A stretch of 49,575 nt of DNA from positions 1 through 49,575 of the forward strand of contig REDT01000180.1 of the NCBI GenBank assembly GCA_007693295.1, in the 5' to 3' direction. A model generated the notes under the pieces. It was not told the DNA's origin and did no database searches. It worked only from the letters and a program-made list of their open reading frames with translations. Positions 1 through 6,404 of the stretch are shown here, one piece after another. Both the position numbers and the translations under genes were made by a program. Position 1 is the first letter of the stretch. Each line of letters starts with the position of its first letter. This stretch comes from Balneolaceae bacterium (lineage in GTDB: Bacteria > Bacteroidota > Rhodothermia > Balneolales > Balneolaceae).

Positions 1-217
1 CGGACTCACCCCCTGTCCCCCTCTCTTCTGCAACTGATGCGCCCGCTAAACGCGGTCTCTCAGTCTTGAAAAGAGGGGGAACTTCGGAATCTGTTCATTG
101 CTCGAATTAAGATATATCTGTTGATCCCGGTAAGGAGTTCCCCCTCTTTACGTGTTTGCCAATCCGCGTCGAGCGGATTAGGCAAGCGCGAAGAGAGGGG
201 GACAGGGGGTGAGTCCG
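1..217. repeat. GC-rich inverted-repeat element, copy 1
   Basis: Positions 1-28 and 190-217 are perfect reverse complements (28 bp, beginning CGGACTCACC). Inside lie two further hairpin-like units, 1-85 and 134-217, each with a pyrimidine arm (TCCCCCTCT type) and a matching purine arm. No coding potential is convincing here. The same unit recurs at 4489-4594 and 4912-4997. It resembles a REP/MITE-type palindromic repeat; it may continue left of the window. Confidence 0.75.
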
Positions 218-399
218 TACTCCGCGCGCAGGCTGATATTTTTAATCCAATTCTAATTCACATCAAATCTTCATTTCTGAATAACCAAAAAGGGTACAGT
301 AAAAAAATGTGGATAACCCTGTTGAAAAGTTGTGGAAAAATAGTTGATTTTTCTATTGACAGCGATTTGAAAATTTTGCTAATTACATATGAGTACAGT
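186..399 (+). repeat. 214-bp perfect direct repeat, copy A
   Basis: This block is identical base for base to 4966-5179. A diverged but collinear tail (400-510 against 5180-5290) follows, ending in the same TGTACTCCGGTAC plus T-run. It contains TGTGGATAA at 308-316 and TGTGGAAAA at 331-339, both matching the DnaA-box consensus TTWTNCACA on the opposite strand. A TTGACA lies just upstream of an ATG at 390. Function unknown. Confidence 0.85.
308..339 (-). promoter_or_regulatory. Pair of DnaA-box-like 9-mers (copy A)
   Basis: TGTGGATAA (308-316) is the reverse complement of the canonical TTATCCACA box. TGTGGAAAA (331-339) is the complement of TTTTCCACA, which also fits TTWTNCACA. The two boxes are in the same orientation, 23 bp apart start to start. 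No dnaA gene is in the window. Binding is inferred only from the consensus match. Confidence 0.45.
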
Positions 400-990
400 T
401 GTTGAGAATGCTACGGCAAGATCGACGATGGGGCTGGAAATTCCGCAGCTCAGTTATATAATGAATCCCAAAAGATGATTTAAATAAATGTACTCCGGTA
501 CTTTTTTTATTTGAGCCAGCTGATTACCCTTTCAGACGCTTGGACGTTCCATGCCCTCTCTTCACGTTTAAAAGTTGATAAGCCATTCACTTCTGCTCTG
601 TGCAAGATTATCATCAGGCATCCGGTCTTGCAACCATAACATTTTTTTCGTCATTGTCTCTTCGAGAGGCAGTGAGAAAAAACCGGATCGTACACTTTTA
701 TTACCACGAAGTCACGATGACACGAAGGATCACAAAGTCATAAATATCTACATTATATACTTCGTGTATTGGTGACTGCCTGTCAGGAATAATTTACAGT
801 TTGAAGCGCTATTTCTCACAATCTCTCAAGGGGAGACACGCCATGGAAAAATTGCCAAATACTTCATGCCTACCCAAATGTTATATCTTCAGGCCGGGCT
901 AAAAAAACCATTTCTAAAATAAAAGTAGATCACTATTTTAGCAGCGACAAATCTATTGGAGCAATCGATACAAATCTCATCCGTACTCTC
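400..990. other. Non-coding stretch before the S9 peptidase
   Basis: Apart from the diverged tail of the direct repeat (400-510) and the MITE-like element (656-837), I see no supported gene here. Very short reading frames are present but show no conserved features. The 838-990 part presumably carries the promoter of the S9 peptidase, but no clear promoter or ribosome-binding site could be picked out. Confidence 0.5.
656..837. repeat. MITE-like element with ~24-bp terminal inverted repeats, copy 1
   Basis: The left arm (656-679, core CTTCGAGAGGCAGTGAGAAA) pairs imperfectly with the right arm (812-837, core TTTCTCACAATCTCTCAAGG). Between the arms is a nested inverted motif of the ACCACGAAGTCACGA / CTTCGTGT kind. 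A related element with the same arm and core motifs lies at 10457-10667. There is no reading frame for a transposase, so it would be non-autonomous. Confidence 0.6.
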
Positions 991-3606
991 ATGAATTATT
1001 CCGCCCGAACTCTTCTGTTATCCCTGTTCATACTTCTGCTGGTTTCATTCTCCTTCACATTCACAGTGCAGGCACAGGATAATGAAAATGGCGAAATAAC
1101 CATCGAAAGCTGGCTGTTGCTTGGCCCGGCAGAGACTCAGCTTCCGCTCTGGCACGACACGCCCAACGTTCGAAATCAAACCTATTCGTTGAGCAACCTT
1201 CTGGATCATGAGCCGGCTGATCAGTCGAAATGGACTCCGGCCGCAGGAGAGAGGGTCCGGTGGTCGGGCGCTAAAACCCTGCAGTGGAGGGCGCAATCAG
1301 GCGAGGAGGCCCCGCTGCTGACCGGTTCACCCGGTGATGCTGCTCCGATGTTTGGATGGGCGGCTTTCTATCTGGAGAATGATCGCTTCACAAAGGCAAC
1401 GGTTACCATTCACAGCCATCATCCGTTTGTGCTCTATGTGAACGGAGAGCAGAAGGGAACGAAGAGCAGCAGTGAAGAGGCAGATTCGGATGCCGGCAGC
1501 CACTCTGCCGAAGTACGGATGCTTCAGGGCAAGCACAGCGTACTGGTGCGGTCGCTCTACAATCCCGAAAACGATGCTCCGTGGAATGTTAAAGCTTCCG
1601 TGAAGTCAGACAACGGGGCGACTATTAAGCCTTCGATCACGCCTCAGCGATTTCTTGATCTCGAAACGATCTCCAATCAGCCGCAACTGGGCAGCCTGGC
1701 CATCTCAGTCGACGGAAGTCTTGCCGCGATGCGGATCAACATGCCCGCACCGCCCGATGGACAGGGCGACTCCTGGCTGGAGATCCGGGAAACCTCCAAC
1801 GGAAACCTCAATCGTGAGTTCAGGGGTGGCAAGGATTTCGGGAGCCTCACATGGGCACCTGAGGGCAAAAAATTTACCTATACGGAATCGGAAGGCGGAA
1901 AAACCTCACTCTGGCTGGCCGATCTTGAAAGCGGATCCCAGCAAAGGCTGCTCCGTGATGTGGAACATTTTGCAGGCTACCGGTGGTCACCCGACGGAAG
2001 CTTTATTCTCTACTCCGTGAGTGAGAGGCCGGAAGCAAACACCACCGGGGTTCGCCTGATTGATGATCTGGAGGAGCGACGGCCCTTGCACTTTAACAGG
2101 AGTTTTATTTACAAGCTGAATGTGCCGGAGGGAACCACCCGCAGGCTTACTGCCGGGCTGCTGACCACATCTCTGCATGATATCAGCCCGGATGGCAAAA
2201 AGGCCCTGATCTCGCGTTCACGCACCGATTATTCGCAGAGGCCCTATTCCGTCACCGAATACAGGGTTCTTACCATCGAAACGCTGGAAACCGATTCGCT
2301 CTTTACCGTGCCGTTTGGCGGCAGCGGAAGTTTCTCACCCGACGGAAGGTCGCTGCTGTTCACGGGCGGCCCGTCGATGTTTGGCGATCTCGGCACAAAC
2401 GTACCGGAAGGAATGGTGGCCAACGACTATGACACGCAGGCTTATCTGTACGACATTTCAAGCCGGAATGTGAAGCCGGTGACCCTGGAGTTTGATCCGG
2501 CGATCAACCAGGCGATCTGGGGCGCTGATTCAAATACGATCTATTTCACGACCACCGACCGGTCGTACCGCAACCTCTACAGATATGATGTTCGCCGTGA
2601 CCGGTTCACAAAAATCGAGACGGTTCCCGATGTGATCAATCAGGTGGATATTGCCCGGAACGGACGCACCGCAATCTACAGCGGAACCGGGATATCGCAG
2701 CCGGTTGCTGCATGGACACTCGATTTGCGGCGCGACCGGTCATTACAGTTGCGAAATCCGGGAGATGAATTTTTCAGTCAGGTACGGTTTGGCCGCGACA
2801 AGGTGTGGTCGTTCACCACGGAAGAGGGAAGGGAGATTGAAGGGTATGTGTACTACCCGCCGGATTTTGATCCCGATAAGAAGTACCCGGTCATTTCCTA
2901 CTACTATGGCGGAACCGTTCCCGTCAGCCGTGATTTTGGCGGACGCTATCCGAAGGAGCTCTATGCTGCAAAAGGATATATTGTGTATGTGATGCAGCCC
3001 AGCGGTGCAACCGGCTTCGGGCAGGAATTCTCGGCGCTTCACGTGAACGACTGGGGCATTATCGTGGCGGATGAAATCATCGAGGGTGTCGGCAAATTTC
3101 TGGATGAACATCCATATGCCGACCGTGAACATGTTGGAGCCATTGGTGCCTCTTATGGCGGTTTCATGACCATGCTTCTGCTGACAAGGACGGACATTTT
3201 CGCAGCGGGTGTGAGCCATGCAGGTATCAGCAATATTGCCAGCTACTGGGGCGAAGGTTTCTGGGGATTCCAGTACAGCGCCATCGCCACGGCGAACTCC
3301 TTTCCCTGGAACCGGGAAGATATCTATATAGGCCAGAGTCCGCTCTACTCTGCCGACCGGGTGACAACTCCGCTGCTTTTCGTGACGGGCATGAGCGACA
3401 CAAATGTACCGCCCGGCGAAAGCCTGCAGATGTACACCGCCCTGAAGCTCCTCGAACGGGAAACCGCTTTTGTTGCTGTGGATGATCAGGACCATCACAT
3501 TGTGGATTATGCCAAGTACAAACTCTGGAAAGAGAGCATTCTGGCTTGGTTCGACAAGTACCTGAAAGTTGAGCCGGAGTGGTGGGAGGAGAAGTACGGG
3601 CAGTAG
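991..3606 (+). CDS. Secreted S9 family prolyl oligopeptidase (DPP IV/acylaminoacyl-peptidase type)
   Basis: The 871-aa protein opens with a signal peptide (hydrophobic residues about 7-27, likely cleavage after VQA). A long middle region has repeated SPDG-type blades (for example around 399 and 452) typical of the S9 beta-propeller that screens substrates. The C-terminal alpha/beta-hydrolase domain holds the catalytic triad: Ser721 in GASYGG, Asp803 in GMSDTN, and His835 in DQDHHI. It should cleave small peptides in the periplasm or outside the cell. About 220 residues before the propeller are not explained by the standard family layout. The ATG at 991 is the only start that keeps the signal peptide; no clear ribosome-binding site precedes it. 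The gene stands alone between repeats. Confidence 0.93.
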   Translation: MNYSARTLLLSLFILLLVSFSFTFTVQAQDNENGEITIESWLLLGPAETQLPLWHDTPNVRNQTYSLSNLLDHEPADQSKWTPAAGERVRWSGAKTLQWRAQSGEEAPLLTGSPGDAAPMFGWAAFYLENDRFTKATVTIHSHHPFVLYVNGEQKGTKSSSEEADSDAGSHSAEVRMLQGKHSVLVRSLYNPENDAPWNVKASVKSDNGATIKPSITPQRFLDLETISNQPQLGSLAISVDGSLAAMRINMPAPPDGQGDSWLEIRETSNGNLNREFRGGKDFGSLTWAPEGKKFTYTESEGGKTSLWLADLESGSQQRLLRDVEHFAGYRWSPDGSFILYSVSERPEANTTGVRLIDDLEERRPLHFNRSFIYKLNVPEGTTRRLTAGLLTTSLHDISPDGKKALISRSRTDYSQRPYSVTEYRVLTIETLETDSLFTVPFGGSGSFSPDGRSLLFTGGPSMFGDLGTNVPEGMVANDYDTQAYLYDISSRNVKPVTLEFDPAINQAIWGADSNTIYFTTTDRSYRNLYRYDVRRDRFTKIETVPDVINQVDIARNGRTAIYSGTGISQPVAAWTLDLRRDRSLQLRNPGDEFFSQVRFGRDKVWSFTTEEGREIEGYVYYPPDFDPDKKYPVISYYYGGTVPVSRDFGGRYPKELYAAKGYIVYVMQPSGATGFGQEFSALHVNDWGIIVADEIIEGVGKFLDEHPYADREHVGAIGASYGGFMTMLLLTRTDIFAAGVSHAGISNIASYWGEGFWGFQYSAIATANSFPWNREDIYIGQSPLYSADRVTTPLLFVTGMSDTNVPPGESLQMYTALKLLERETAFVAVDDQDHHIVDYAKYKLWKESILAWFDKYLKVEPEWWEEKYGQ

Positions 3607-3796
3607 GTTCACCGCGGAGCAGCAAAGGGCGCAGGGTGTGATGAATTGAGATAAGTCCTTGGTGTGTACTTGTGCCGTACTTTGTGTTTTGTGGTTCACC
3701 CGGCTTCAACGGTATCACCCGTTTTCAGAAACACCATCTCCGGTTTTTAGTATGCTACATCAGTCTCCATCCAAAAACCTGATCAAACAGAAACCA

Positions 3797-4466
3797 ATGA
3801 GTAAAGCCCTGATATTCGCCCTCGCAGCCATCATCGCACTTATTCTCATCGCGTTTATGGACTGACCCTGAGCATCAACTCCATCGTGAAATCCGGAATA
3901 GAACAGACCGGCTCAGAAGTGACCGGCACGCCCGTTACGGCAGACCGCGTCTCCATTTCCCCGTTCTCCGGAAAAGGGGAGATCAGCGGCTTCAGGGTCG
4001 CCAATCCCGGGGATTACTCCAACGACTATGCCTTTGATGTAGATGATTTCCAGATCGAGCTGGATATTTTTTCACTCTTCAGTGATGAGATTGTGATTCG
4101 TGAAATTGTTATTTCCGCTCCTTCGATCTGGGTAGAACAGAAGCTGCCTGAAAACAATATTCGAACCATAATGCGGCACATTCAGAATATGATGCCGGGC
4201 GAAGCATCCGATAAAGCGATGGTGATTGAGCGGTTCCGGCTTACGGGGGTTCGGTGGACCTTTACACCGAAGTGGGCGGTGAACGGTCTGCCAGGATTGA
4301 TTTTTCGGATATCGAACTTACGGACCTGGGACGCGGCGGCGGAAGGGCTGCAGTTGAAGAGGTGATCCGTGAGATCGCCGAAAGAGTTGCCGAAGAGGCC
4401 CTTCAGGGCGCAGCCCGAAGCGGCGGTGAGCAAATCCGTGGTACTATCCGGGATCTGTTTGACTGA
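3797..4466 (+). pseudogene. Frameshifted AsmA-like membrane protein (paralogue of 5733-6404)
   Basis: Translation in three successive frames gives a protein collinear with the intact 223-aa paralogue. It begins MSKALIFALAAIIALILIAF from 3797, and the frame is lost near 3860 (stop at 3863-3865). It continues as IVKSGIEQTGSEVTGT from about 3880 and loses frame again near 4247. It then ends with DLYTEVGGERSAR to LFD* at 4466. Two frame changes in a short gene, with the rest well conserved, suggest recent inactivation or, less likely, assembly errors. A GTG at 3886 could start the middle fragment, but it would lack the membrane anchor. Confidence 0.8.
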
Positions 4467-4488
4467 TCAACATCTATTCTTAGTGTTT

Positions 4489-4594
4489 GGACTCACCCCT
4501 CCCATAGGGATCCCTCACGGGGCTGTCCCCCTCTCTTCGCGCCTACCTAATCCGCTCGCCGCTTATTGGCAAACACGTAAAGAGGGGGAACTCC
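4489..4594. repeat. GC-rich hairpin repeat, copy 2 (left partner)
   Basis: The unit starts GGACTCACCCC and ends AGAGGGGGAACTCC, in the same orientation as 1-85. About 22 bp (TAGGGATCCCT motif at about 4505-4516) interrupts the outer arm compared with copy 1. The inner arms (TCCCCCTCTCTTCGCGC against CACGTAAAGAGGGGGAA) pair as a hairpin. Together with 4912-4997 it forms a larger inverted repeat. Confidence 0.65.
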
Positions 4595-4911
4595 ATAGCT
4601 GCTTTTTAGCTCAACCCATAACTGTCCAAAATATTTTTGGAATTAGATAGATGTGGACTCTTGCAGGCCTTCAGCATGGCAAAGTGGCTTCGCCAATATT
4701 TGAGGCGGTGTCCCAAGCTACGTTATTACAAGCTGCTCCATAATAGGGATCATTTCGTGAAAGGGCTGCGAGAGTCCCGACTCGTTCAAGCAAGGGAATG
4801 TACATTTGGCACCGTACGAAATCTGACCATACATTCGAAAAAGCTTAGATTTTTTGCAACTTGAGAAACTGTTCATAGCTCGAATTAAGATACATCTAAG
4901 GATCCAGGTAA
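4595..4911. other. Non-coding stretch between hairpin repeats
   Basis: No reading frame here looks like a real protein. The 75-codon frame at 4637-4864 has no recognisable features and lies inside repeats. From 4867 the sequence is a diverged version of 91-133 (CTGTTCATAGCTCGAATTAAG against CTGTTCATTGCTCGAATTAAG), so the direct repeat begins before its perfect core. Confidence 0.5.
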
Positions 4912-4997
4912 GGAGTTCCCCCTCTTTACGTGTTGTTTCATTCGCCGGTCAGGCGAATCGAAACGGCGCGAAGAGAGGGGGACAGGGGGTGAGTCCG
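4912..4997. repeat. GC-rich hairpin repeat, copy 2 (right partner)
   Basis: The sequence starts GGAGTTCCCCCTCTTTACGT and ends GACAGGGGGTGAGTCCG. It is self-complementary around 4945, where ATTCGCC and GGCGAAT are arms separated by a few bases. It overlaps the start of the second copy of the 214-bp direct repeat. The equivalent unit in copy 1 is 134-217; the loop sequence differs, but the arms compensate each other. Confidence 0.65.
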
Positions 4998-5179
4998 TAC
5001 TCCGCGCGCAGGCTGATATTTTTAATCCAATTCTAATTCACATCAAATCTTCATTTCTGAATAACCAAAAAGGGTACAGTAAAAAAATGTGGATAACCCT
5101 GTTGAAAAGTTGTGGAAAAATAGTTGATTTTTCTATTGACAGCGATTTGAAAATTTTGCTAATTACATATGAGTACAGT
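4966..5179 (+). repeat. 214-bp perfect direct repeat, copy B
   Basis: Identical to 186-399 at a constant offset of 4780 bp. The alignment continues without gaps, but with substitutions, to 5290. The DnaA-box-like 9-mers fall at 5088-5096 and 5111-5119. An ATG at 5170 opens a frame reading MSTVVMNATAELTTELEIPQ; the matching frame in copy A (from 390) reads MSTVVENATARSTMGLEIPQ. Both stop within 30 codons. Confidence 0.85.
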
Positions 5180-5405
5180 GGTCATGAACGCTACGGCAGA
5201 ATTGACGACAGAGCTGGAAATTCCGCAGCTCAATTGTTTGATGATACCCTAAAGTTGATTTAAATAAATGTACTCCGGTACTTTTTTTATGCCTTTCACT
5301 TTCCTCTCTTCGCATTTGATTCACATCAAAACCTCTTTCCCGGATTATTCTTACTAGCGTCTTGTCAATTGTAAATTGTCGGTGACATGTAGAGCTATAG
5401 ATTCT

Positions 5406-5492
5406 GAGGCTGTCCAAAAAGATGCATTTGATTTATGGATGCCTTAATAATTTAAGTTTAGCTGTAGACAAATGTACTTTTTGGACAGCCTC
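5406..5492. mobile_element. Small MITE with GGCTGTCCAAAAAG-type terminal inverted repeats
   Basis: The left arm 5406-5430 (GAGGCTGTCCAAAAAGATGC...) and right arm 5469-5492 (...TACTTTTTGGACAGCCTC) are reverse complements over about 24 bp with a single gap and one or two mismatches. The whole is 87 bp with an AT-rich middle and no frame. The arm sequence is of the kind seen at the ends of DDE-transposase insertion sequences, so this is probably a non-autonomous derivative. No full-length parent is in the window. Confidence 0.65.
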
Positions 5493-5732: not shown

Positions 5733-6404
5733 ATGAGTAAAGCGATCAAGTATGGTGTAGGTGGATTTTTTGCATTAGCCGTTATCATTGTTTTGGTACT
5801 GCTTTTCAGCATAAATTCAATTGTGAAATCGGGAATTGAGGAGATTGGTACAGAGATGACGGGCACTGCTGTAACCGTAGACCGCGTGCTTATTTCACCT
5901 TTTTCCGGAAAGGGGCAAATCAGCGGGTTCAGGGTGGCTAATCCGGACGATTACAGCAGGGAGTACGCCATAGAAGTGGAAGACTTCTCCATCGAACTAG
6001 ATGTTTTTACACTCTTTTCAAATGAGATAGTGGTCCGTGAGGTCATCATTAACTCTCCTTCAATATTTGTGGAGCAGAAACTTCCCGGTAACAATATTAA
6101 CTCCATTCTCAGCCATTTGCGGAATATAGACGCCGGACAAACCACCGACGCCGAATTGATTATTGAACACTTTGTAATGACCAATGGCGTGACTGATCTC
6201 TACACAGAAATCGGGGGTGAGAGATCGGCAAGAGTTGAGATTTCAACCGTGGAGCTGCACGACCTCGGAAGAGGCGGAGGTCGAAGTGCCGTTGAAGATG
6301 TAATTAAAGAGATTGCAGGAAAGGTGGGTGAAGAGGCCCTTAAAGCAGCTGCAGAAAGCGGAGGAGAGCAGATCCGCGATGCCATCCGGGATCTGTTTAA
6401 CTGA
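5733..6404 (+). CDS. AsmA-like (DUF748-like) membrane-anchored protein
   Basis: The 223-aa protein has one N-terminal membrane helix (about residues 9-29). After it come residues such as TVDRVLISPFSGKGQISGF and VEDFSIELDVFTLF, which match the beginning of AsmA/DUF748-type envelope proteins linked to lipid transport or envelope upkeep. It is much shorter than full AsmA proteins and ends in a glycine-rich and alpha-helical tail (GRGGGRSAVEDV, then GGEQIRDAIRDLF). Family assignment is from motif memory, so function is uncertain. ATG 5733 has the ribosome-binding site AGAAAGG. It is the intact paralogue of the pseudogene at 3797-4466. Confidence 0.7.
   Translation: MSKAIKYGVGGFFALAVIIVLVLLFSINSIVKSGIEEIGTEMTGTAVTVDRVLISPFSGKGQISGFRVANPDDYSREYAIEVEDFSIELDVFTLFSNEIVVREVIINSPSIFVEQKLPGNNINSILSHLRNIDAGQTTDAELIIEHFVMTNGVTDLYTEIGGERSARVEISTVELHDLGRGGGRSAVEDVIKEIAGKVGEEALKAAAESGGEQIRDAIRDLFN

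Follow-up and report, generated by a model that had tools for sequence, protein, structure and literature searches.

A putative DnaA-controlled small structured RNA gene, duplicated in a Balneolaceae genome

DnaA, the initiator of replication, is also known to regulate the transcription of protein genes. At datA and DARS, its boxes form a cluster that is independent of a promoter and is accompanied by IHF or Fis sites, and the boxes of DARS do not all have the same orientation. The rules of DnaA-box recognition were established in phyla other than the Bacteroidota, to which the present host belongs. Small RNAs such as 6S RNA and others in Rfam are typically about 120-200 nt long, with paired 5' and 3' ends and a promoter of their own. 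In E. coli nrdAB, DnaA acts on three boxes upstream of the promoter and either activates or represses transcription, depending on how much of it is present and which nucleotide it carries (PMC8203912); a term search of that paper finds small RNAs unmentioned. Rli55 and AspocR of Listeria are noncoding RNAs controlled by a B12 riboswitch, in which the aptamer stands 5' of the RNA and brings about its termination (PMC8079631).

The window described here is a whole stretch of 49,575 nucleotides from a Balneolaceae bacterium (contig REDT01000180.1). An earlier note on this DNA had reported a perfect 214-bp duplicate, 186-399 and 4966-5179, an alignment that continues without gaps past both cores to 510/5290, and two DnaA-box-like 9-mers per copy, 23 bp apart. 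All of this is confirmed: the offset is 4780, the 23 bp run from start to start, and both 9-mers match TGTGNAWAA. The "diverged tail" that runs to 510/5290 is a structured RNA gene. Positions 391-508 and 5171-5288 are probably DnaA-controlled, replication-coupled noncoding RNA genes and not an origin, with transcription and DnaA binding both predicted from the sequence. The RNA occurs in two classes: class I, to which both window copies belong, has three DnaA boxes of the same orientation upstream, and class II has none. The features of the locus are as follows.

1-217, no strand: MITE-like inverted-repeat element; arms 1-28 and 190-217 are perfect complements (28/28)
186-399, no strand: perfect duplicate tract, copy 1; element end, spacer, promoter and first RNA bases
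308-316, plus strand: DnaA box 1, TGTGGATAA (TTATCCACA on the minus strand); candidate site, near-invariant in 39 class I genes
320-328, plus strand: box 2, TGTTGAAAA, between boxes 1 and 3; weaker and off-consensus in the window, TGTGGAAAA in many relatives
331-339, plus strand: DnaA box 3, TGTGGAAAA; candidate site, matches TGTGNAWAA
356-361, plus strand: putative -35 element TTGACA, copy 1; TTGAC is conserved in class I
377-385, plus strand: putative -10 region TGCTAATTA, copy 1; conserved TGYTAATTA, weak sigma-70 match
391-508, plus strand: class I structured RNA gene, copy 1, about 118 nt; from covariation and covariance model
391-396/490-495, 443-445 with 496-498, and 502-508, plus strand: parts of RNA copy 1 from the alignment, namely P1, the pseudoknot of P3-loop CCG with tail CGG, and the U-run
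4489-4997, no strand: second, longer copy of the inverted-repeat element; ends immediately 5' of the second promoter
4966-5179, no strand: perfect duplicate tract, copy 2; from identity to 186-399
5088-5119, plus strand: DnaA-box array, copy 2; boxes at 5088-5096 (TGTGGATAA), 5100-5108 and 5111-5119 (TGTGGAAAA)
5136-5141 and 5157-5165, plus strand: putative -35 element and -10 region, copy 2; from sequence
5171-5288, plus strand: class I structured RNA gene, copy 2; from covariation and covariance model

Two parts make up the 214-bp tract: some 32 bp (186-217) that belong to a dispersed inverted-repeat element as its right arm, followed by the promoter of the RNA gene. The element end recurs around a dozen times in the genome in near-exact form, several times at contig ends, and the start of the present contig falls inside the repeat of element 1-217. 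The MITE-like elements at 1-217 and 4489-4997 have GGACTCACCCCCTGTCCCCCTCTCTTC arms; they break contigs and are abundant in some relatives too. In DNA comparisons with relatives, conservation is limited to about 302-399 of the tract. The 83 bp at 218-300, which are not conserved elsewhere, are nevertheless identical between the two window copies (83/83), against 49/83 with the third copy on contig C135, and in the RNA body, copy 1 shares 112/120 positions with the C135 copy but 101/120 with copy 2. This pattern points to recent gene conversion or recombination between the window copies; the identity over 214 bp is not explained by selection. Of the causes put forward earlier for the strict identity of the core, gene conversion thus stands and selection falls; the perfect promoter identity is read here as a recent recombination tract and not as the result of selection on the boxes. 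Near the second copy, the window has a long near-perfect hairpin at 5406-5492 (GAGGCTGTCCAAAAAG...CTTTTTGGACAGCCTC), probably another small repeat element. Positions 3797-4466 and 5733-6404 are a paralogous gene pair, of which the latter has a weak match to DUF748 (AsmA-like), just under the cut-off, and the former is split in two reading frames and appears broken.

When relatives are aligned, a conserved promoter-like block is followed by about 118 nt that covary as an RNA. The fold is a four-way junction with an added pseudoknot: a closing stem leads into three hairpins, one of them capped by a UACG tetraloop. In an alignment of 26 sequences, 94.6% of the cells are paired and compensatory changes occur in 21 of the 30 pairs; the covariation is 0.520, compared with 0.282 when shuffled (0/500) and at most 0.115 in slid controls. 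With 48 sequences, 27/30 pairs covary. The pseudoknot, formed by the P3 loop and the tail after the closing stem, was found by eye and has double changes in all five of its pairs (5/5). When it is included, the 78 copies have compensatory changes in 32 of 35 pairs and a covariation of 0.640 versus 0.240 shuffled (slid controls at most 0.120), in an alignment that was fitted to the model and has one spurious row, L102:1513.

No family in Rfam, 6S included, matches the RNA, and the window gives no credible match even at E 10. The RNA is similar to 6S-type small RNAs in size, in its paired ends and in having its own promoter, but 6S is a rod with a central bubble, while the Balneolaceae RNA is a four-way junction with a pseudoknot. 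No sense-strand frame is open through the 121-nt region in both window copies, which, together with the compensatory changes, rules out a peptide gene. Since the genes past the RNA vary and are often convergent, with varied housekeeping genes as neighbours, the RNA does not appear to be an mRNA leader, and a riboswitch or leader for one conserved gene is ruled out by the same variability. The rigid, pseudoknotted fold suggests that the RNA may bind a protein or a ligand rather than act as a simple antisense RNA.

The class I promoter has a fixed order in its 39 copies: TGTGGATAAC(T), GTGGAAAA, TTGTGGRAAA, an AT-rich stretch, TTGAC and TGYTAATTA, and the sequence upstream of the boxes is unconserved. 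These 39 copies have boxes that fit TTWTNCACA, at a position that is conserved with respect to the promoter elements. The three boxes are head to tail with a spacing of 11-12 bp, which places them on the same side of the helix; they precede the TTGACA -35 element and stand some 50-85 bp ahead of the RNA start. Of 37 scored cases, 25 have 27-28 bp between box 3 and TTGAC, and some of the outliers are owed to the search pattern. An automatic promoter and terminator scan flagged neither the -10 region nor the short terminator hairpin in the window, both of which are weak by consensus.

Single 9-mers are common (8 in the window, where about 4.3 are expected). The two-box pattern TGTGNAWAA-N{1,16}-TGTGNAWAA occurs exactly three times in the 3.56-Mb draft genome, in the two window copies and the C135 copy, so that all 3/3 arrays sit at class I RNA genes. 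In 14 genomes, the triple array occurs 17 times, and the covariance model places a class I gene at each of them (17/17); the reversed control gives none. Matches to the array in public genomes are all of Balneolaceae type (eight Balneolaceae MAG contigs, one MAG labelled Bacteroidetes and Rhodohalobacter sulfatireducens WB101). The DnaA of the host genome has the box-reading signature GRDHSTVIHA at its C-terminus. Among the options raised earlier, a DnaA-controlled promoter is well supported by this dedicated array at a nearly fixed position, with a putative noncoding RNA as its product.

The layout has one other place in the genomes. Outside class I RNA genes, it occurs across 16 genomes only at nrdJ, identified by NCBIfam as a B12-dependent ribonucleotide reductase. 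A looser layout, a box followed by TGATTTTTTNNTTG, has 13 matches in the 16 genomes, seven at class I RNA genes and six at nrdJ. A DnaA-box pair in the class I layout is seen at the nrdJ loci L068, L069, L072, L073, L077, L199, L200 and L202-L205. By its upstream sequence, nrdJ is likely a member of the DnaA regulon. In other families of the order, weaker DNA matches of the tract also adjoin nrdJ, on its upstream side, which suggests that the class I promoter may be borrowed from nrdJ. The E. coli nrdAB promoter, like class I, has three DnaA boxes upstream (PMC8203912); nrdAB makes a protein, while the class I product is a putative noncoding RNA and DnaA binding here is predicted. Both TGTGGATAA and TGTGGAAAA are also present upstream of dnaA, at conserved places in seven genomes. 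The dnaA upstream region, where DnaA autoregulation would act, thus has 9-mers in common with the class I array, but most of its boxes are 100-150 bp apart, whereas class I has three in 32 bp, phased and in one orientation.

A covariance model search finds the RNA in 49 of 92 Balneolaceae genomes and 13 of 21 genera; the genomes are drafts, and absences may be missed copies. Among the high-quality genomes, 27/66 are without it, which argues that the RNA is not essential. Outside the family, only marginal matches were found (E 0.002-0.009, one of them within a protein ORF), which are taken as chance, and by this search convincing copies appear only in Balneolaceae. Each genome with the RNA has one to five copies. 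The host genome has four: C255:390-508 and C255:5170-5288 on the window contig, C135:268-386 and C204:16577-16694. Class I comprises 39 copies with upstream sequence, three of them in the host genome, and class II comprises 37, counts that omit L102:1513 (antisense, spurious) and L144 (5'-truncated). On a tree of the RNA sequence only, class I forms one clade, read off a tree of a short alignment, and the box promoter was therefore probably acquired once. The promoters of class II show another repeated motif, a pair of YYTACA sites separated by about 20-30 bp (L101, L103, L147, L154-L156), and several class II transcripts carry AGAGAGAG stretches.

The distinctive feature of class II is at its 3' side. 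A TPP aptamer follows 28 of the 37 copies, 23 found by Rfam (RF00059), at 23-79 nt downstream of the RNA, and five by motif only; these include L125 (on C204), L100-L102, L104, L118, L134, L136, L139, L141-L143, L150-L156 and L160. None of the 39 class I copies, the window copies included, has a TPP aptamer downstream. The host genome has just two TPP aptamers: one is fused to the class II RNA on C204, and the other is a canonical riboswitch on a separate contig, 5' of an outer-membrane-receptor-like gene. The 3' domain of class II matches the TPP riboswitch (RF00059), but most class II copies have no thiamine gene following. From its position, the TPP aptamer of class II is read as replacing a simple terminator. 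The nearest precedent for a metabolite aptamer and a noncoding RNA in one transcript is Rli55/AspocR (PMC8079631), although there the aptamer lies 5' of the RNA, while in class II it lies 3' of the RNA domain and in the window copies it is missing.

The aptamer raises the alternative that the whole RNA is a cis-acting riboswitch or leader for some ligand and not a free noncoding RNA. The junction with its pseudoknot is indeed aptamer-like, and a TPP aptamer placed after the class II RNA recalls tandem riboswitches. This reading is nevertheless unlikely, since class I has its own terminal U-run and variable, often convergent downstream genes, most class II copies are not followed by a same-strand ORF of at least 70 aa, and several of them have an intrinsic terminator 25-70 nt past the aptamer. 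A little less likely still is that the boxes serve chiefly to titrate DnaA or to reset the nucleotide it carries, as at datA or DARS, with the RNA gene incidental. Tight clusters of predicted high-affinity boxes, in one to five copies per genome, would suit such a role, but three boxes per copy would titrate little, the boxes are all in one orientation, against the DARS layout, and across 14 genomes every array accompanies an RNA gene, with a spacing from the -35 element that is mostly constant (27-28 bp in 25/37 scored cases). The DnaA-titrating site proposed earlier is accordingly judged unlikely.

A part of the replication origin, or a sequence derived from it, is very improbable, even though AT-rich sequence lies downstream of the boxes and the dnaA upstream region has the same box types. 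In two relatives with single-contig genomes, the RNA gene is separated from dnaA by 497 kb in a total of 3.49 Mb and by 1.28 Mb in a total of 3.75 Mb, and dnaA has its own conserved set of boxes; the RNA genes are several per genome and have varied housekeeping genes as neighbours. These distances and copy numbers are not those of an oriC, near dnaA and one per chromosome, and leave the earlier suggestion of an origin-related sequence unsupported. Least probable is an ordinary dispersed or mobile repeat with incidental 9-mers. Such a reading holds for 186-217, the end of a multi-copy inverted-repeat element, but is refuted for 302-508 by the base-pair covariation and the fixed boxes. The earlier note had taken many genome copies with unconserved boxes as the mark of such a repeat; beyond the first 32 bp, the tract has just three related copies in the genome, all with boxes in place, and it is kept in other genera without the repeat.

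The mechanism proposed for the DnaA-controlled RNA gene is a prediction throughout, from its transcription and the binding of DnaA to the direction of control and to what the RNA does and acts on. DnaA most likely binds the three-box array cooperatively and sets the rate of the promoter. It would probably act as an upstream activator tuned by the level of DnaA-ATP/ADP, as at the promoters of ribonucleotide reductase genes, which would tie production of the RNA to replication. Activation is favoured because the array is placed where an upstream activator would touch RNA polymerase, its boxes recur at roughly every helical turn, and its spacing from the -35 element is constant in most copies; repression at high DnaA-ATP is a possible alternative. 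More tentatively, the two classes may be one RNA family with two inputs, DnaA in class I and a 3' TPP aptamer without an adjacent target gene in class II, the RNA being a trans-acting effector that would link replication state or coenzyme status to a common target.

This small structured RNA gene of the Balneolaceae is previously undescribed. In the open-access literature, nothing was found linking Balneolaceae with riboswitches, nor any DnaA-controlled noncoding RNA promoter, nor an orphan TPP aptamer within a noncoding RNA. If the reading is true, control of a dedicated noncoding RNA by DnaA would be new, as would a 3'-fused TPP-sensing RNA. Class II, in which a TPP aptamer is present but mostly no gene follows, suggests that free RNAs may use metabolite aptamers as modules. 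The array, conserved across genera in a layout common with ribonucleotide reductase, would mean that the replication-coupled regulon of these bacteria reaches RNA.
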